Virus record (IMG/VR): IMGVR_UViG_3300032311_000795
Span: 1 to 38,532 of that record
DNA length: 38,532 nucleotides
From: a virus
Reading direction: 5' to 3' (one strand)
Position numbers and translations under genes: made by a program. This document shows, piece after piece, positions 2,741 through 38,457 of the stretch. The notes beneath the pieces were generated by a model. The model saw only the letters and a program-made list of their open reading frames with translations, did not search any database and had not been told where the DNA came from. Position 1 is the first letter of the stretch; every line of letters starts with the position of its first letter.

Positions 2741-2982
2741 TGAAAACAGATTTGTTCCCTCGCCCTTGGTGCGTCCACAAACCGAAGGTTAAAAACTTTC
2801 GGCCATTGATTCGAGCAGAGATTAAGAGAGTAAGCAAAAGGAAAAAGAATGGGTGGAGATCGCGGATTTTCGTAGGTGAAAGTCCTATGGGTCATAGTCA
2901 CTACAATTCTAAAACCCTTGCGGAATTAGGTTCTATTAAGATGCTCGAAGCATATACACAAGTTCACTATATAACCTCATAA
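2740..2982 (+). CDS. Basic hypothetical protein (80 aa)
   Basis: Start taken at 2740 (MKTDLFPRPW) because its ATG overlaps the previous stop as TAATG; an in-frame upstream ATG at 2707 would run into the paralogue gene and has no ribosome site. The middle is very basic (RAEIKRVSKRKKNGWRSRIF), consistent with nucleic-acid binding. Unrecognised. Confidence 0.65.
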   Translation: MKTDLFPRPWCVHKPKVKNFRPLIRAEIKRVSKRKKNGWRSRIFVGESPMGHSHYNSKTLAELGSIKMLEAYTQVHYITS

Positions 2983-3022
2983 GAACCAAAACAACCAACC
3001 AAAGAAAGAAAAAGAAAATACA
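2983..3022 (+). promoter_or_regulatory. CAACC/GAAAGAAA leader (third copy)
   Basis: Forty bases with a single T, containing AACC repeats then a GAAAGAAAAAGAAAA purine core before the ATG at 3023. Third example of the leader layout at 766 and 1873. Confidence 0.5.
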
Positions 3023-3457
3023 ATGAAAACACAATGCGTTGAACCAATCGATGCCCTTGCAATTCACTTGGGCGTGAATAAAGAAGAGATAACAGAGCAG
3101 ACATACACTCACTACGGCTTGCCGATATTTTCTATCGGCTCGAAGGAGTACGCCGTGGGCGATGATGAGCAAGCGGGGGAAGCATTATACGAGTATATTG
3201 AGCAAAGCGTCTGGGCGTTTCGTGCGTCCTTTATCGCTAGTGAATGCAACCTACCAGAATCGGAAGGAATGATTGAGGCGGCTCAAGAAAAGTGTGAGGG
3301 TGCGAATGATGGCATCCTTGCGATGATAAAAGGCACTTGTGGCCTTAATTCGTTTGTGGATTCAGCAGAATCAGCGGATGGCCGGGGTCACTTCCTTTCT
3401 CCTTACGATAGTGAGGAAAACGAGGTGGACGGCTTTTTCATCTATCGGTTAAACTGA
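3023..3457 (+). CDS. Conserved phage hypothetical protein (144 aa)
   Basis: Acidic protein belonging to a recurrent phage family of unknown function, recognised by the C-terminal pattern ADGRGHFLSPYDSEENEVDG ending in F-Y-R. The N-terminal half has a GVNKEEI...HYGLPIFSIG..YAVG block followed by a long helical region containing WAFRASF. The stop overlaps the next ATG as TGATG. Confidence 0.75.
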   Translation: MKTQCVEPIDALAIHLGVNKEEITEQTYTHYGLPIFSIGSKEYAVGDDEQAGEALYEYIEQSVWAFRASFIASECNLPESEGMIEAAQEKCEGANDGILAMIKGTCGLNSFVDSAESADGRGHFLSPYDSEENEVDGFFIYRLN

Positions 3458-3552
3458 TGAAAACAGATAACAGCGGGATGAACTTGCTACTCACGATATT
3501 GGTATATGCGGTTGCCTTTATTGTGAGATACTTCAAGAATATAAAGTATTAA
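3457..3552 (+). CDS. Membrane micro-protein (31 aa), last gene of the rightward module
   Basis: Thirty-one residues: polar N-terminus with Asp/Asn/Ser, one hydrophobic span (MNLLLTILVYAVAFIV), then a basic tail (RYFKNIKY). The TGATG overlap with the previous gene and a terminator 24 bases after the stop frame it as a real last gene. Function unknown; positive-inside rules predict N-out, C-in. Confidence 0.5.
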   Translation: MKTDNSGMNLLLTILVYAVAFIVRYFKNIKY

Positions 3553-3575
3553 CTAGAACAGAGCAAAGAGAGAAA

Positions 3576-3606
3576 GGGGAGGGGCGAAAATGCCTCTCCC
3601 CTTTTT
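3576..3606 (+). terminator. Rho-independent terminator ending the rightward module
   Basis: An 11-bp stem (3576-3586 with 3591-3601, two G-U wobbles), an AAAA loop and TTTTT at 3602-3606. It lies between the convergent ends of the rightward genes (3552) and the leftward genes (3739). On the minus strand the trailing run is only TTTCTCTC, so it may be a weaker terminator leftward. The remaining bases 3607-3738 show nothing else. Confidence 0.8.
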
Positions 3607-3738
3607 CGTGCCTACGCTCAAACAGATTCCTTGCTCCTATTGGCCTTGCCTTGGGGCGTTCTTTAGTCTCCCGCTATACCCATCCGCTAGGTATCTTTGA
3701 CGCATTCCTAGAGCTATTCTCGCTCTAATTCTTGTGGA

Positions 3739-4212
3739 TTAAACCTCGCCCCCCGCCTCTCTGAATGCTTCCACGATGGGGCGTGCTTCTTCGATAAACT
3801 GCCTTTTCTGGTCATCGCTCCAACTGCCCGGTGACTTGCGGGTTAGCCATTGTCGAGCCTTTATAATATAGGAGTGCCAAGCCGCTTCCGCTTTTGGGTT
3901 TGATGTCTCTATCGGGTCGGGAAGGATACCAGACCAAAGGGCAAGCTGTTTTAGCTGTGAGGGATTGGGTGCAGAAAGTAGTGGACGAGCCTTCGCCACT
4001 CTTTCCAGCCGTCTCCCCTCTTCCTCGTTCACTCCCGAAATTAGTAGGATTTCAACTATGTTTAGGTTTTCTTCCCTTGCCGATAATAAAATTTGACCAG
4101 CATCAGCGGCCAAACTGATTGTCTCTCCCATCGAGGAAATTGCCCTATCTTTTGCCTCGTTAAGAAGTTTGATTTGTTTCTTCAACTCTATGCCGATTTG
4201 TTTTTCACTCAT
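3739..4212 (-). CDS. DUF3102-like helical protein (157 aa)
   Basis: Last gene of the leftward transcription unit. Residues 20-75 follow the pattern of DUF3102-type proteins (AADAGQILLSAREEN then a helix ending in RRLERVAKARP), often found near ParB-like and replication genes in phages. Residues 95-150 are helical with Trp-rich turns. No catalytic motif. The start is preceded by GAAAGAGAAATCCTAA, combining a purine site with the AAATCC box seen before several other genes here. Family assignment is from pattern only. Confidence 0.65.
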   Translation of the reverse strand: MSEKQIGIELKKQIKLLNEAKDRAISSMGETISLAADAGQILLSAREENLNIVEILLISGVNEEEGRRLERVAKARPLLSAPNPSQLKQLALWSGILPDPIETSNPKAEAAWHSYIIKARQWLTRKSPGSWSDDQKRQFIEEARPIVEAFREAGGEV

Positions 4213-5051: not shown

Positions 5052-5602
5052 TGGATTTCCACTAACGCTGTCCGTCCAACCCTTGCTAGTTCCCTCTTTG
5101 CTTGCCGTTCTGTGGCATAGAAAAGATCAACGACTGGGAGCTTGGTTTTGCCAGATGCCGTCCGTTCAACTACTGCCGTTCCAGTATCGTGAGCGTGGTA
5201 TGCCTTGCCTTCGATTAGCAGGGTCGTTCCGTATGGGATTATTCTAGGGTCTACCGCACAAGACTTGCCAGAGACTAACCGTTTTCCAGTAGAGCTTTTA
5301 TAGCCAAACTCGTCCTCACCCAACCAGTATGCCGTGATGCGAGCCTTGATTGTTTTCTTGGCTGGTGGCTTTGGCGTTTCGATCATTATGTTCGCCGCTT
5401 GGCTTGAGCATAAGAGCGTGATGGCTAGGATGATGATGGCTTTTTTCATCGTTAAGAAGTGGAGTCGCTCGCATAGGTGGCGGTAGCGTCTCGATGGGGA
5501 TTCGTCTCCCTTGGTTCTTTTGCCTTGCTCGTTGTCAATCGGAGTCTTAAGCTTGTCGATCTGTTCCTCGATTGCCTTGGCCTCCATCTTGTTAATCTTC
5601 AC
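5048..5602 (-). CDS. 3D-domain cell-wall protein with internal membrane segment (184 aa)
   Basis: The C-terminal 110 residues are a 3D (Asp-Asp-Asp) domain like that of MltA-type lytic transglycosylases and related wall enzymes: AVDPRIIPYGT, HDTG and VVDLF carry the three aspartates. Residues 52-71 (MKKAIIILAITLLCSSQAAN) would be a signal peptide if translation began at 5449. The better start is the GTG at 5602 with GGAGGTGAAGC before it, which adds a charged 51-residue N-terminus and makes the hydrophobic stretch a signal anchor. It probably acts on periplasmic peptidoglycan. It lies far from the main lysis cassette. Confidence 0.75.
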   Translation of the reverse strand: MKINKMEAKAIEEQIDKLKTPIDNEQGKRTKGDESPSRRYRHLCERLHFLTMKKAIIILAITLLCSSQAANIMIETPKPPAKKTIKARITAYWLGEDEFGYKSSTGKRLVSGKSCAVDPRIIPYGTTLLIEGKAYHAHDTGTAVVERTASGKTKLPVVDLFYATERQAKRELARVGRTALVEIQ

Positions 5603-5888
5603 GCTTCACCTCCGTCCAATGGCATCGCTTGTTTGGCCTTTTGATCTTGCCCCTTCCCTCCAAATATCGTAGGTGGTATTGAATCGCCCCGTGTGTTTTC
5701 TTTAACACTTCGGCAATCGTGCAAGTCGGAATCTCGTTGGTGATTAGGGTGAACACGGCATCTCGGAGCATATCAATCGTGGCTTGGTTGCGAGTCGTGG
5801 CGTATAGCTTTTCTAGTTCCTTGCCGGGGTAGCGGTCAGAAAGGATGCCGTTAGCCTTTGCCTCTGCGGTTACATAAGATTCGTTCAT
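5592..5888 (-). CDS. Winged-helix DNA-binding protein (98 aa)
   Basis: Start set at 5888 (MNESYVTAEA), where the ATG overlaps the stop of the ABC/GNAT gene as ATGA; a longer frame to 5975 lies inside that gene. Residues 55-90 look like an ArsR/MarR-type wing: TIAEVLKKTHGAIQYHLRYL is the recognition-helix region, followed by EGRGKIKR. Likely a transcription regulator or a replication-linked HTH protein. It overlaps the next gene's GTG by 11 bases. Confidence 0.7.
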   Translation of the reverse strand: MNESYVTAEAKANGILSDRYPGKELEKLYATTRNQATIDMLRDAVFTLITNEIPTCTIAEVLKKTHGAIQYHLRYLEGRGKIKRPNKRCHWTEVKRED

Positions 5889-6973
5889 TGAGTTTTTAAG
5901 GTAGTTTGAGTCTGGTTTGATGCAAGGGATGGTTTTGGGTTGTTCAGCATTCCAATATATTCGTGAGAGAAGCATATTCTCTTAAAGTCTCGCTCGATAT
6001 GTTCTATTGATTTCCCGAATCCCCTCTGAACTCTAGCCACACCATCCTTCATATAGGATGTTCGCCTAACCATATTGGTGCTTGTCGGCCTCCATAACGG
6101 GCTTTTATTTCTGTAATTACCGAGCGATGGATGTGCTGTTTTCTCAAAAAATCTCAAGCCTCTTTCTTTGTATATTTCTGCTACCGCATTAGAAAACTTA
6201 ACTCCGATTCCTATGCCTTGGTATTCTGGTAACACAACTAATCTGCTTCCAGCCCAATAAGACTTAATATCCCTTCCGCATCTATGGATTACGGCATAGA
6301 AGGCAACAATCTTGTCCTCGATATATCCAGCATAGAAATGACAAGATTTGCTGACGGCTGAACTCAAATAGTGATGGTTTTTGAAATAAAACCAATCTTC
6401 GAAATTGGCTGGCTTAATGGTAAGTAAAATAGATGGTCGTTGAAGAAACCTCCCGCCACGAAAGGTGGCTTTATCTGTGTCATAAACAATGTCCGGGCAA
6501 AGCCATTCCTCTATATCGCTATGGCAAGTAGAAACCACAAATAGGCTTTCTTTGTTGATGTGCCTTCTTAAGCCAATAGATAGGGATTTTGCAGTGTCTC
6601 TATCAACTGTCGAAGTAAATTCATCTACACATATTTGTTTTTTTTCTAGTATTCTGGCTATTGTAGCTCTGTGCTTTTCGCCATTCGATAGCGTTTCGTA
6701 TTTCCTAAACCAAGTTGGTATTGACCGTAGGCCGGATATCTTGAGGAACTCTTCCCCGCTTTCTATTGAGTTAAAGTTCTCTATAAGAGCCTTATCTGAA
6801 TCAAAGCTGATGGATGGTATCTCATTAAACCAGTTTTTAAGTATGGTTGTTTTACCGCTTCCACTCTTTCCAACCAACAAAACTAATCCTTTTTCTGGTT
6901 TTCTTGGTATCTTAATTTTTTCCTCAATATGATCTGCAACATCATAGTTTTTTTTAATTTGCTCTACATTCAT
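5885..6973 (-). CDS. ABC-type ATPase fused to a GNAT-like acetyltransferase domain (362 aa)
   Basis: Residues 1-175 are a compact ABC ATPase: Walker A GKSGSGKT (35-42), signature LSNGEKHR (95-102), Walker B ICVDEF (114-119, E118 catalytic) and an H-loop histidine at 151. There is no transmembrane partner, so this is not a transporter. Residues 185-350 look GNAT-like: a KNHHYLS segment (198-204), then the acetyl-CoA loop motif RLVVLPEYQGIGIG (244-257). The architecture matches COG2401 (ABC ATPase fused to predicted acetyltransferase). Phage Mom-type DNA modification enzymes are also GNAT-fold, so nucleobase modification is a reasonable but unproven guess. ATGA overlaps both neighbours, in an HTH-rich early block. 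Confidence 0.8.
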   Translation of the reverse strand: MNVEQIKKNYDVADHIEEKIKIPRKPEKGLVLLVGKSGSGKTTILKNWFNEIPSISFDSDKALIENFNSIESGEEFLKISGLRSIPTWFRKYETLSNGEKHRATIARILEKKQICVDEFTSTVDRDTAKSLSIGLRRHINKESLFVVSTCHSDIEEWLCPDIVYDTDKATFRGGRFLQRPSILLTIKPANFEDWFYFKNHHYLSSAVSKSCHFYAGYIEDKIVAFYAVIHRCGRDIKSYWAGSRLVVLPEYQGIGIGVKFSNAVAEIYKERGLRFFEKTAHPSLGNYRNKSPLWRPTSTNMVRRTSYMKDGVARVQRGFGKSIEHIERDFKRICFSHEYIGMLNNPKPSLASNQTQTTLKTQ

Positions 6974-7236
6974 AGGTAATACTCCGCTACGCTCTTTCCG
7001 CTGTTCATCTTTATGGTTCGCTTCTGCACATCGTAACCAGCCTTACGCAAATCACACACTCGGCTCGCCAAGCGGAAGCACTTGAACCAATCGAGTGCCT
7101 CCAAAGCCGTGAGTGTTCGTCCAGATTGCAAGTGGGCTAGGATGCGAGCGTTCTGGTCGTTGCCTTCCGTCTTTACTGGATGCGTTGTCCTCATAAAAGG
7201 CAACTCAAACTGCTCTGATTCGACCATAGCGATCAT
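6970..7236 (-). CDS. Small helix-turn-helix protein (88 aa)
   Basis: The core NDQNARILAHLQSGRTLTAL then EALDWFKCFRLASRVCDLRK, GYDV is the pattern of small phage winged-helix domains (HTH_39-like), which bind DNA and often follow recombination or replication genes. AAAGGAGGCTCAAG precedes the ATG, an excellent ribosome site. Overlaps its neighbours on both sides by 4 bases. Confidence 0.75.
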   Translation of the reverse strand: MIAMVESEQFELPFMRTTHPVKTEGNDQNARILAHLQSGRTLTALEALDWFKCFRLASRVCDLRKAGYDVQKRTIKMNSGKSVAEYYL

Positions 7237-7634
7237 CTTGAGCCTCCTTTGGCCTTGCGAACAGCAAAGTTACGGCTCTTTGCGTTCATTATGGTTGTTC
7301 GGTGAACTCCCCAAGCTCTTGCAAGCTCGCTCATCGACATTCCGCTATCGAGTTGATGCTTCCAAAGCGTCCATCGCTTCTTTACAGTCGAATACTCGCG
7401 ATTTCGCCTTGCTCCATCCTTTCCACGGGTCGGAATAAGCTCTTTTGGGATGTCTAGGGGGGTAGTTACCCCTATTACGAACCTTTCAAGCCCTTTAGAG
7501 GCCAATTCTGCTCGATTTTGTGCCATTGTAGAGGTTAATGTGCTTACCATTTGCTCAAACTCCCTTAATTTGTCCTCACACATCTTTACCCGGTGGATGG
7601 TTGCCGCTAAAACTAATTCTTGTGGATGGTTCAT
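7233..7634 (-). CDS. HTH protein, possible replication accessory (133 aa)
   Basis: Start chosen at 7634 (MNHPQELVL) because it overlaps the previous stop as TAATG; the frame remains open to 7658. The N-terminal half is a coiled-coil-like helix (residues 10-45); a basic linker follows; the C-terminal HTH has the shape MSELARAWGVHRTTIMNAKS. Its position immediately after the initiator-like gene suggests a replication or regulatory helper. Confidence 0.65.
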   Translation of the reverse strand: MNHPQELVLAATIHRVKMCEDKLREFEQMVSTLTSTMAQNRAELASKGLERFVIGVTTPLDIPKELIPTRGKDGARRNREYSTVKKRWTLWKHQLDSGMSMSELARAWGVHRTTIMNAKSRNFAVRKAKGGSR

Positions 7635-8365
7635 TATGGACACCCCGCATTCATCCACTCGGCGTGAGTATTGAATCCAGCTAATTTATATGTTGGCGGG
7701 GATTCGCACCCCGATTTAATAGGTTTTCTCATTGGTTGATTTCCTTTTGTTGGTTGTTGGTTGCTCCTACGCTGACAATTTCTGGCACACGCTCGCCAAT
7801 CTTTAACAGATGCCCTTCCACCGACCTTCCATCCGTTCGATTCATAATAATCAAATGCACTTTCCACATCCGTTCCTACCCAGCCAATTTCCTTTGCATA
7901 AGCCAACCAATCCGCACGCATAGGACGCACTTGCGTCCTTGTATGTTCTAGCTTCTGGCTTCTAGCTTCTAGTCTCTGCCTCGGACTTTTTATGGGACAT
8001 TTGCTGGACATTTGCTGGACATCGCCGTGACGCATACGCATCTTTCTACTAGCGTCTGACTTACGCATTTGCTCATCCTTCACCATTCTGCGTGAAATGA
8101 TGGTCTCTTTGTCGAATGAGAACACACCAGATGCGTGCAACTCGTCCATCAATTCGGCTGTCCTATTTGGCATAAGACCACATATTCTAGCCAGTTGTTC
8201 GCTTCGTGCTGGCTTGCCTCCAATAAGCAAATATCCGTGTCGTTCTGATTTTGCCATTAGACAAATCATATCTGCCCAAAGCCCTCTAGCCTCCACCGAG
8301 CAAGACCGAAGAGCCTCATCGGAAAGCCAGTCGGCAACATAGAATTTAATCCAAGGCAACTTCAC
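7634..8365 (-). CDS. Phage replication initiator-like protein (243 aa)
   Basis: GTG start overlapping the previous stop (GTGA). The N-terminus WIKFYVADWLSDEALRSCSV, then EARGLWADMICLM, is the signature of DUF1376/lambda-O-like replication organisers with a winged-helix DNA-binding domain (residues 1-95). The middle is basic and low-complexity; residues 150-205 (DWLAYAKEIGW...FDYYESNGW.VGGR..VKDWRACARNC) are a typical C-terminal partner-binding segment of this group. It probably recruits the host helicase to the phage origin; no phage helicase is seen. Confidence 0.75.
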   Translation of the reverse strand: MKLPWIKFYVADWLSDEALRSCSVEARGLWADMICLMAKSERHGYLLIGGKPARSEQLARICGLMPNRTAELMDELHASGVFSFDKETIISRRMVKDEQMRKSDASRKMRMRHGDVQQMSSKCPIKSPRQRLEARSQKLEHTRTQVRPMRADWLAYAKEIGWVGTDVESAFDYYESNGWKVGGRASVKDWRACARNCQRRSNQQPTKGNQPMRKPIKSGCESPPTYKLAGFNTHAEWMNAGCP

Positions 8366-27345: not shown

Positions 27346-27587
27346 TTCGCCATCCCTGCTAATGCTTTTTTGATTGCGTACTCAATCACGGCTTCTGGGT
27401 CGTGCTTTAAGGCAAGCATCCCAGCCTCATACAATTCCTTCCCAGCCTTATCATCATAGATAATATCCACTAGCACATACTTTGTTTTGTCTACGCTAGA
27501 CTTGCCGAAGGTAATCATACCAAGCCCCTTCGTACTCTCTCCCTTTTTCGATTTCCTACATCCAATTATTTGTTTTGCGTTTTTCAT
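27333..27587 (-). CDS. Hypothetical protein in the glyco island (84 aa)
   Basis: Unrecognised basic protein with a beta strand pair (KTKYVLVDIIYDDKAGK) and C-terminal helix. Overlaps the two-domain glycosyltransferase by 32 bases, with AAAGGA 10 bases before the ATG. Confidence 0.55.
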   Translation of the reverse strand: MKNAKQIIGCRKSKKGESTKGLGMITFGKSSVDKTKYVLVDIIYDDKAGKELYEAGMLALKHDPEAVIEYAIKKALAGMAKCKK

Positions 27588-29208
27588 AGATCGCTTTTCC
27601 TTTCTCGTAGAATTCTGGCTTGTTGTGGTTCTTTAGTTGTTCGTCTGGTTGGCCGCCATTAAACATAGGGTTATCGTGCTTAAAGACTAAATCCTTCGCC
27701 TCAATAACCACGCTATCAGCGTAGGCTCTATCCGTGAACTCATTGTCCGAGTAGATGCCATCTGACTCTTGGTAGTCTGGGTGGAATAGATGCCCCTGCT
27801 TCTTGAGCCTAGATTGCGTCATAATCGCCATACAAAGGAGTTTATCTTGTCGTAGGCCATCTGATACTGCCAGCACTTTCTCTTGCGTTGCATCCCCAAT
27901 AGCGTTCGAAATTAGGGCATCCCAATGGCGGGGGGGTGTCCAGTCATCGCTCATTTGAATGATAATATCCCCTTTGGCTATTTTTGCCCCAGCGTTCCAA
28001 GCGTTAATCATCCCGCCCGGATTGCACCTAATCGCTTGGTGAGGGGTGTAGTCGGTTGGGTCGTTATGGTCTACCATAAACAACCATTCAATTTCTAGGG
28101 GCTTTTGAGCCAAGGAAAGCCACATCCAACGCCTCTGCCAAGCGACTTGTGGTCTGCCTCTGGTAGCGTGAACAATGCTAATCTTGGGTGCTGGTCGCAT
28201 CTTCCTAATCTTTTCAGCCTCACCAGCTTCTCCCACGCATACCGAGGCAGTTTCATATAAGTCCATAGCTTGCCAGTTATAGATTGCCTCAACAAGATTC
28301 CAATAATGAGACTTGGGACGATGTAGGGTCATACAAGCCCGAATAGAGCCATAAGCCTTAATCCAGTTGCCCTTTCCCGACCAATGATTAGCGATATAGA
28401 AATAAGCCTCTCTGCGGTCTGGTTGCAACGCTACGGCTTGACCAAGATAAGTGAGCCTCTCGTTTTCTGGAACAATCCTACCCAAATTACAAAGCACATC
28501 GTAGCGAAGTGTGTCCTCTAGCTCTGTAAACATAAGAGCCTTCTTGCTGGATTCAATGCACTTGTCGTGCTGGTTCGACAAAAAGTATTCTTGAGCTTGG
28601 TAGTAAAGAGAGTTTGGTGCTGGAACAAGGGTGTCAGCCAAGATGTTGAAGTTCCTCTCTGCACTTCTTGGCTTGTAGCCGTGGGGTTTATGGATTCGGA
28701 AAATCTTATCGACTCCAATAGTTTTGTTTGGCTCTTTAGTAACAAGCATTTCGTGAACTCGATTCTTCCAGCTACAAGTTCCCCTCTTGGAGATTTCTTC
28801 TCGGAGTGGGATGAGTCCAGCGTTATCTACATTGTATTTTAACGCCACTAGGTGAGCGTCTTTTTGAATGGCAAGGTCAATAGCCTCTTCAACAACCTTC
28901 GCCCCATCCTCGGCCATTACATCGTCAGCATCGACCCATAAACACCACTCGCTTGAGCAAGCCTCAAGAGCCGTGTTCCTTGCCGTTGCAAAATCATCTA
29001 TGTGATTCCAGTCAGTTCTTTGATTCTTGTAATGAACGATTTTTGCACCAATCCCACTCGCAATTTCTTCCGTCTTATCTGGCGTAGCTGACCCCCTAGA
29101 AATGCAAACAATAAGTTCCGCTGAAATTGGCTTAAAGCTTTCCAAGCATCTACCGATATACTCTTCTTCATTTCCAGCGATGAGATAGACTGAAATAGGA
29201 TATTTCAT
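27556..29208 (-). CDS. Two-domain glycosyltransferase with TPR-like middle (550 aa)
   Basis: N-terminal GT2 domain: ISVYLIAGNEEEYIGRCLES and WVDADD (91-96) for the metal site. Residues about 200-320 are TPR-like helices (LYYQAQEYFLSNQHDKCIES). A second GT-A-like domain follows from about 343 (ISIVHATRGRP...) with a QMSDDW metal motif near 415. Bifunctional sugar transfer is likely. AGAAATCCTATCAAA precedes the ATG; TTGACA at 29242 is a weak promoter candidate. Confidence 0.7.
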   Translation of the reverse strand: MKYPISVYLIAGNEEEYIGRCLESFKPISAELIVCISRGSATPDKTEEIASGIGAKIVHYKNQRTDWNHIDDFATARNTALEACSSEWCLWVDADDVMAEDGAKVVEEAIDLAIQKDAHLVALKYNVDNAGLIPLREEISKRGTCSWKNRVHEMLVTKEPNKTIGVDKIFRIHKPHGYKPRSAERNFNILADTLVPAPNSLYYQAQEYFLSNQHDKCIESSKKALMFTELEDTLRYDVLCNLGRIVPENERLTYLGQAVALQPDRREAYFYIANHWSGKGNWIKAYGSIRACMTLHRPKSHYWNLVEAIYNWQAMDLYETASVCVGEAGEAEKIRKMRPAPKISIVHATRGRPQVAWQRRWMWLSLAQKPLEIEWLFMVDHNDPTDYTPHQAIRCNPGGMINAWNAGAKIAKGDIIIQMSDDWTPPRHWDALISNAIGDATQEKVLAVSDGLRQDKLLCMAIMTQSRLKKQGHLFHPDYQESDGIYSDNEFTDRAYADSVVIEAKDLVFKHDNPMFNGGQPDEQLKNHNKPEFYEKGKAIYEKRKTNNWM

Positions 29209-37992: not shown

Positions 37993-38457
37993 TTAGAGGG
38001 GTTTGCCACAAGCCTCACACTTTTCTCCGCTGGCTTTCCCCTCCTCCTCTGGTGCAGTTGCTTCCATCATCTCGGCTATTTCTAGCTCTCCGAACCCGGT
38101 AATGTCCAGATCAATCTCGCCAGTATCCAATTCTTCAAAAATATCTTTTAACAAGGGAATATCAAACTCTCCACTTAACTTGTTTAGTGCGATGTTGGCC
38201 GCCCTTTCTTTTTGCTCGTCCAACCATACTGCCCACACCTCTACTTCTTCTTTCCCAAGGGCTTGATAGCACTTCAATCGCTGGTGGCCTCCAACGATAT
38301 TCCCAGTTTTAGCATTCCAAGTGATAGGTTGCAGATTGCCAAGTTCCGAAAGGCTTTTAGTCAATCGACCTAACGCATCGCTAGTAATTTTTCTTGGATT
38401 GTACGAAGCTGGCAAAAGCTCGGTTAGTGGCTTGGAGAGCAAACAGGGATATTTCAT
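37993..38457 (-). CDS. ParB/sulfiredoxin-like nuclease domain protein (154 aa)
   Basis: YNPRKITSDALGRL and IVGGHQRLKC are the ParB-type motifs (NPRK 20-23, GGHQR 56-60). The C-terminus adds EKCEACGKPL, a half zinc knuckle. In phages such proteins sit beside small terminase and may aid packaging or nick DNA. First leftward gene after the control region. Confidence 0.8.
   Translation of the reverse strand: MKYPCLLSKPLTELLPASYNPRKITSDALGRLTKSLSELGNLQPITWNAKTGNIVGGHQRLKCYQALGKEEVEVWAVWLDEQKERAANIALNKLSGEFDIPLLKDIFEELDTGEIDLDITGFGELEIAEMMEATAPEEEGKASGEKCEACGKPL

Follow-up and report, generated by a model that had tools for sequence, protein, structure and literature searches.

What does a phage gain from a protein that joins a complete ABC ATPase to a GNAT-type acetyltransferase, and does the setting of its gene point to a substrate? 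The question is raised by an open reading frame at positions 5885–6973 of an IMG/VR virus record of 38,532 bases, which was analyzed as a whole and is referred to below as the window; all window coordinates given here are for features on the minus strand. Terminase, portal, capsid, and sheath-like genes give the window the content of a phage. Within its structural-gene region, a separate gene (27556–29208) matches the phage beta-1,4-glycosyltransferase family phrog_13126 (1e-29). An initial annotation of the fusion gene had proposed a DNA-modification or anti-restriction role, had compared the protein with Mom-type nucleobase modification enzymes, and had held that such a role would be new.

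Domain organization of the ABC-GNAT protein

The reading frame is intact, its boundaries are exact, and it encodes 362 amino acids. PHROG 11143, a family of 'unknown function', matches the protein over its full length (2.5e-86), and the ABC ATPase-GNAT layout is supported by Pfam, PHROG, an alignment of 103 members, and an AF2 model of the whole protein (mean pLDDT 90.9, pTM 0.85). Residues 1–177 (6443–6973) make up the ATPase half, which matches the Pfam family ABC_tran (PF00005, 4.8e-6) and returned ABC ATPases in fold searches of the PDB. This half contains a Walker A motif, GKSGSGKT (residues 35–42; 6848–6871), in which G35, S37, G38, G40, and K41 are invariant among 103 relatives; an ABC signature, LSNGE (95–99; 6677–6691), with S96 and G98 invariant and L95 and E99 nearly so; a Walker B motif plus D-loop, VDEFTSTVDR (116–125; 6599–6628), with D117, E118, T120, S121, and R125 invariant; and an H-loop, C150-H151 (6521–6526), both residues of which are invariant. 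No transporter or transmembrane partner gene was found beside the reading frame in the list of open reading frames or in Pfam and PHROG searches of the neighbors. The motifs and the PF00005 match thus bear out the initial description of an ABC half with Walker A, signature, Walker B, and H-loop that lacks a transporter partner. An ABC transporter was ruled out as the identity of the protein, since no transporter gene adjoins it and its second half is a GNAT.

The GNAT half (residues 178–346; 5936–6442) matches Acetyltransf_1 (PF00583, 4.9e-5) and, when modeled as a separate domain, reached a pLDDT of 92.1. Its motif A, the acyl-CoA pyrophosphate loop RLVVLPEYQGIGIG (244–257; 6203–6244), has R244, P249, Q252, and G253 as invariant residues and contains QGIGIG, which fits the QxxGxG form of an acyl-CoA loop. 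Both this loop and the preceding segment KNHHYLS (198–204) are present where they were first described; within the segment, HHYL (200–203; 6365–6376) carries the invariant pair H201-Y202. No DNA-binding domain was recognized in the protein. Across the 103 relatives, most residues of the ATPase motifs are invariant, as are W194, H201, Y202, R244, P249, Q252, G253, and W294. Because of this invariance chance is ruled out by far as a source of the motifs, and selection for activity therefore appears to act on both halves.

The initial annotation had suggested comparing a predicted structure with Mom and with GNATs, and the comparison gave a divided answer. Ordinary GNATs were matched in the PDB (E 2.6e-6), the near solved folds including N-terminal and ribosomal-protein acetyltransferases (RimI, Naa50, NatC) at 9–19% identity, but Mom (8bv8) was not within the 50 best fold matches of the GNAT domain. 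As modeled, the second half is a true GNAT fold with an acyl-CoA loop.

Mom itself has a GNAT-type fold (PMC7824862), and the relation between the two proteins was followed further by sequence comparison. The Mom family PF25680 is absent from the best 25 of the 30 Pfam families matched by the ABC-GNAT protein (hmmscan, E≤1), so any match is not better than about E 0.14. Two Mom motifs, E-L-x-R and S-[FY]-A-D, are present in the Mom alignment and absent from the ABC-GNAT consensus, and the QxxGxG loop of ABC-GNAT was not seen in the Mom alignment. Profile alignment of the two families by hhalign was weak (probability 9–16%), yet its score was above that of every column shuffle: 25.7, versus a maximum of 18.9 over 100 shuffles, and, with 39 Mom sequences, 27.5 versus a maximum of 20.3 over 60. 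An invariant His-Tyr following the first helix, H201-Y202 in ABC-GNAT, aligns opposite the likewise invariant His-Tyr of Mom. Membership in the Mom family was rejected on the PF25680, motif, hhalign, and 8bv8 results. ABC-GNAT would be like Mom in role but is not a member of its family, and it is possibly distant kin; what survives of the 'Mom-type' designation is the likeness in role and the aligned His-Tyr.

The slot between two conserved HTH genes

The ABC-GNAT gene is flanked by two genes that border a variable slot. The left border is an HTH_39 winged-helix gene (HTH39, 6970–7236; PF14090, 1.5e-15), found in all 73 sister loci, and the right border is an HTH-like gene of 98 amino acids (HTH98, 5592–5888), whose start and protein are conserved among sister phages. 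Both overlap the ABC-GNAT gene, HTH39 by 4 nt and HTH98 probably by 4 nt as well; the overlap with two HTH genes had been described initially, but with the downstream gene as a 127-aa frame overlapping by 91 nt. Judged by the start conserved in sister phages, that gene probably begins at 5888 and encodes 98 aa. Directly after the slot lies a gene for a 3D-domain protein (PF06725, 5048–5602), probably cell-wall lytic or secreted, which is kept in the sisters. The HTH genes were ruled out as functional partners of ABC-GNAT, as they are core borders that are retained when the slot is empty.

Sister phages of the window were found through its ParB_N protein (77–96% identity), and the slot set comprises the 73 sister loci having both border genes, with median identities of 88% for HTH39 and 95% for HTH98. 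The slot is empty in 31 of these loci and filled in 42. Classified by HMMs built for the analysis, with a Pfam check on representatives, 38 of the 42 filled slots contain a recognized DNA-base-modification gene, the contigs being metagenomic, partly redundant, and mostly of uncertain completeness. Mom alone occupies 19 slots and Mom together with a methyltransferase one more (20 with Mom in total); N6/N4 methyltransferases are present in eight, TAGT (TET-associated glycosyltransferase) in five, C5 methyltransferases in four, and a further PF01555 methyltransferase in one (L418). Representative occupants match Pfam families clearly (Mom, PF25680, 4e-42; PF01555, 9e-49; TAGT, PF20691, 3e-32; PF00145, 1e-72). 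Nothing recognizable was found in the other four of the 42, so the slot may not be exclusive to modification genes. Among the loci compared, ABC-GNAT is the occupant in the window only. Wherever the TAGT cassette occurs (L414, L438, L447, L477, L479), it is accompanied by one and the same 141-aa gene, a possible partner in hypermodification.

The limits of the exchanged segment are visible in the junction alignments. The insert starts at the HTH_39 stop codon, and its last ∼20 codons are leader DNA common to sisters with an empty slot, with Mom, and with TAGT. No ABC-GNAT gene was found in 26 sister records; two weak matches, both to its last residues only, mark where the gene enters the native leader DNA. 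From the junction alignments and a tblastn search of residues 342–362 against an empty locus (L399), the exchanged cassette extends approximately from 5947 to 6973.

Other junctions in the neighborhood were compared in the same phages. At the control junctions HTH141-HTH39 and 3D-w177, inserts were present in 0 of 72 and 0 of 62 loci, respectively. Of 65 loci, 14 have an insert at the junction HTH98-3D, which in 10 cases carries a C5 methyltransferase. Inserts at w243-HTH141 consist of an unrelated gene that bears a P-loop-like motif and matched none of the modification profiles. From the contents of the slot and of HTH98-3D we therefore conclude that the region is a modification island in which ABC-GNAT is one exchangeable cassette. 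The C5 methyltransferases at HTH98-3D (L425, L436, L443, L451, L452, L465, L468, L470, L471, L475) are in some cases apparently truncated.

A shared slot position is evidence of a common role, not of chemistry. This positional evidence, an ABC-GNAT gene in a slot of known modification genes, is what is new here. Gene position strongly supports the DNA-modification role put forward in the initial annotation, and the model supports a GNAT fold with an acyl-CoA loop; the annotation's claim to novelty is taken up below.

Relatives and the ParB_N-linked clade

Relatives were found in 54 or more deposited phage records, and profile searches confirmed 418 places in bacterial genomes and at least 596 on viral contigs; a single-sequence search of bacterial genomes had found no close kin. 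Several phages of Gram-positive hosts, among them phages of Lactococcus, Streptococcus, and Oenococcus, encode the two halves as separate genes that overlap or adjoin. A number of deposited relatives are labeled, for example, 'hemin importer' or 'ABC iron siderophore transporter', which look like annotation errors (KU160494.1, MK448933.1, MT859305.1, and others). In the pT24 record LC168164.1 (L005, 5815–6987), the annotation divides ABC-GNAT into two CDSs, leaving a gap in the GNAT half that reflects a true interruption or else an error in sequencing. Two relatives are overlapped at their 3' ends by another gene, in L038 one with a weak Mom-profile match (6942–7865; 3e-12) and in L044 one with a C5 methyltransferase profile match (2871–3758; 5e-34).

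A tree of 113 proteins, midpoint-rooted for drawing only, has two main groups. The first is ParB-linked (47 of 56 rows labeled P). The second, which includes the window, is almost entirely ParB-less, with 55 rows lacking the linkage and one long-branched row having it. In a list of 80 bacterial-genome loci, a ParB_N gene lies directly upstream of ABC-GNAT in 57, often with an identical overlap, these loci being the best matches to their query and not a random sample. Because terminase or portal genes follow many of the ParB-linked loci, these are largely prophages. One locus (L002) is a triple fusion with ParB, ABC, and GNAT regions in a single 573-aa reading frame, its ParB region recognized by the analysis's own ParB profile and not by Pfam.

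The same type of ParB_N has other neighbors on viral contigs. Among 80 such loci, likewise the best matches to their query rather than a random sample and classified by the same HMMs, a DNA methyltransferase is fused in 40, a Mom-family gene adjoins in 12, and ABC-GNAT adjoins in four; the other 24 have different neighbors or are truncated (one truncated). Thus one position is taken by a methyltransferase, by Mom, or by ABC-GNAT. The ParB_N of the ParB-linked ABC-GNAT clade is 57% identical to the ParB_N part of the ParB-methyltransferase of phage P8625, and in Microbacterium phage Appa a Mom-like gene lies directly downstream of a related ParB_N gene. Viral loci with ParB_N followed by Mom are L194, L201, L210, L214, L221, L239, L245, L250, L251, L258, L264, and L266, and also L182. 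At the 24 loci with no recognized methyltransferase, Mom, or ABC-GNAT (L192, L199, L206, L208, L211, L231, L254, L257, and others), the neighbors may be further modification enzymes.

The argument from ParB linkage pertains to this other clade and not to that of the window, in which no ParB gene adjoins ABC-GNAT and none was found in 42 records. The window does encode a stand-alone ParB_N protein (37993–38457), the product of a core gene that lies ahead of the terminase genes and is not linked to the slot; it matches phrog_620 (1.3e-38) and phrog_498, a DNA methyltransferase family (6e-36). This protein ends in a CxxC tail, EKCEACGKPL, and is strongly conserved among the sisters. It was ruled out as a partner of ABC-GNAT, being kept in sisters that lack ABC-GNAT, and the ABC-GNAT clade of the window being otherwise ParB-less.

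Proposed function, alternatives, and known systems

We consider it likely that ABC-GNAT is a phage DNA-base acyltransferase directed against host restriction-type defences, with the ABC half as a gate and the gene as an exchangeable slot cassette. At its QGIGIG loop the GNAT half would bind an acyl-CoA, in the simplest case acetyl-CoA, from which the acyl group would pass to an exocyclic amine on a phage DNA base; His201-Tyr202 are predicted to sit in the active site. The ABC half would pair with that of a second copy around two ATPs, like soluble ABC ATPases that act on DNA, and this ATP-dependent pairing could gate or position the acyltransferase on DNA. The modified bases would then protect phage DNA from host restriction-type defences, and the gene would serve as an exchangeable cassette in a dedicated modification slot that in sisters holds Mom, DNA methyltransferases, or TAGT. 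That phage DNA is the substrate is probable, chiefly on the strength of the slot comparison.

Other GNATs use proteins or small molecules as acetyl acceptors, and the near solved folds of the GNAT half include the protein N-acetyltransferases RimI, Naa50, and NatC. Assisted by the ABC half, the GNAT half could acetylate a protein of the host, RNA polymerase for instance, in a host take-over comparable to that by the phage GNAT Rac, which acts on the RNA polymerase alpha subunit (PMC7824862). Against a protein target, which we regard as unlikely, stands the company of DNA-modification genes, which fill the slot in 38 of the 42 occupied sister loci. An ABC ATPase half is also, to our knowledge, no feature of Rac-like GNATs. 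RNA-acetylating GNATs are established as well, and a route through a free nucleotide precursor, which may still enter phage DNA, would suit the replication-gene neighborhood of several relatives. A target among tRNA, mRNA, or precursors is nevertheless quite improbable, as the other slot occupants come from DNA-acting families (Mom, DNA methyltransferases, TAGT) and Pfam and PHROG found no nucleotide-metabolism partner adjoining the gene.

Two further readings were considered. PADLOC returned weak matches to PtuA (1e-3) and, over the ABC signature region, to mad3 (1.5e-11), as might be expected of a defence or superinfection-exclusion ATPase of PtuA/MADS type for which the slot is a cargo site; these matches, that to MADS mad3 included, span generic ABC/P-loop motifs only, no nuclease or toxin partner adjoins the gene, and the other cargo of the slot is modification genes. 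The defence-system link was rejected, and such a function is very improbable. The presence of ABC-GNAT in the window alone among sister loci, together with the four filled slots that hold no recognized gene, would also fit an unlinked accessory gene with no part in DNA modification that reached the slot by chance. Against such an accident, which we think hardly credible, the independent ParB slot of other phages likewise holds a methyltransferase, Mom, or ABC-GNAT in exchange for one another, and the family is widespread and conserved.

The preferred reading of a DNA-base acyltransferase has a more specific form, on which our judgment is evenly balanced: an ATP-gated DNA acyltransferase, its catalytic GNAT distinct from Mom, that places on phage genomes a chemical group so far unrecorded in DNA, such as an amide-linked acetyl or larger acyl group on adenine, cytosine, or guanine, and that occurs both as a self-sufficient form, in the clade of the window, and as a ParB-guided form, in the prophage clade. 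The family is widespread, is often labeled as an iron or siderophore transporter, and had its function predicted in 2013. Strong evidence by position comes from the natural exchange of its gene with Mom, DNA methyltransferases, and a DNA glycosyltransferase among phages that are otherwise alike, which opens the prediction to a direct test by mass spectrometry of nucleosides. ParB_N and the slot are suggested as markers for finding more DNA modifications.

The 2013 prediction shows that a modification role is not new, as the initial annotation had supposed. In the account given in PMC7824862, Iyer et al., 2013 (NAR 41:7635) predicted that an ABC ATPase-coupled GNAT acylates a DNA nucleobase, and the prediction is restated there for Tenacibaculum phage pT24. 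By its sequence, the window protein appears to belong to that family, with an intact ABC half lacking a transporter, a fused GNAT, and homology to pT24. Among the papers searched, none reported an experimental test of the family.

Among known systems, that of pT24 has the same two-domain layout and predicted role, and the pT24 locus shows 37.8% identity across 83% of the window protein (E 7e-50), although pT24 is a jumbo phage and the window a 38.5-kb record of a contractile-tail-type phage. ParB_N-DNA methyltransferase fusions such as that of Verrucomicrobia phage P8625 resemble the ParB-linked clade in their ParB_N (57% identity, as above) and in the same pre-terminase position; they carry a methyltransferase in place of the acyltransferase, and the clade of the window has no adjoining ParB. 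ABC transporter ATP-binding subunits have the Walker A, signature, Walker B, D-loop, and H-loop in common with ABC-GNAT, which differs in having no membrane partner and a fused or adjacent GNAT. Mom, the adenine modification enzyme of phage Mu (PF25680, 8bv8), is similar in its GNAT-type fold and in the register of its His-Tyr; Mom relatives fill the same slot in 20 of the 42 filled sister loci and are ParB-linked in some phages, whereas the fused ABC ATPase is a feature of ABC-GNAT only.
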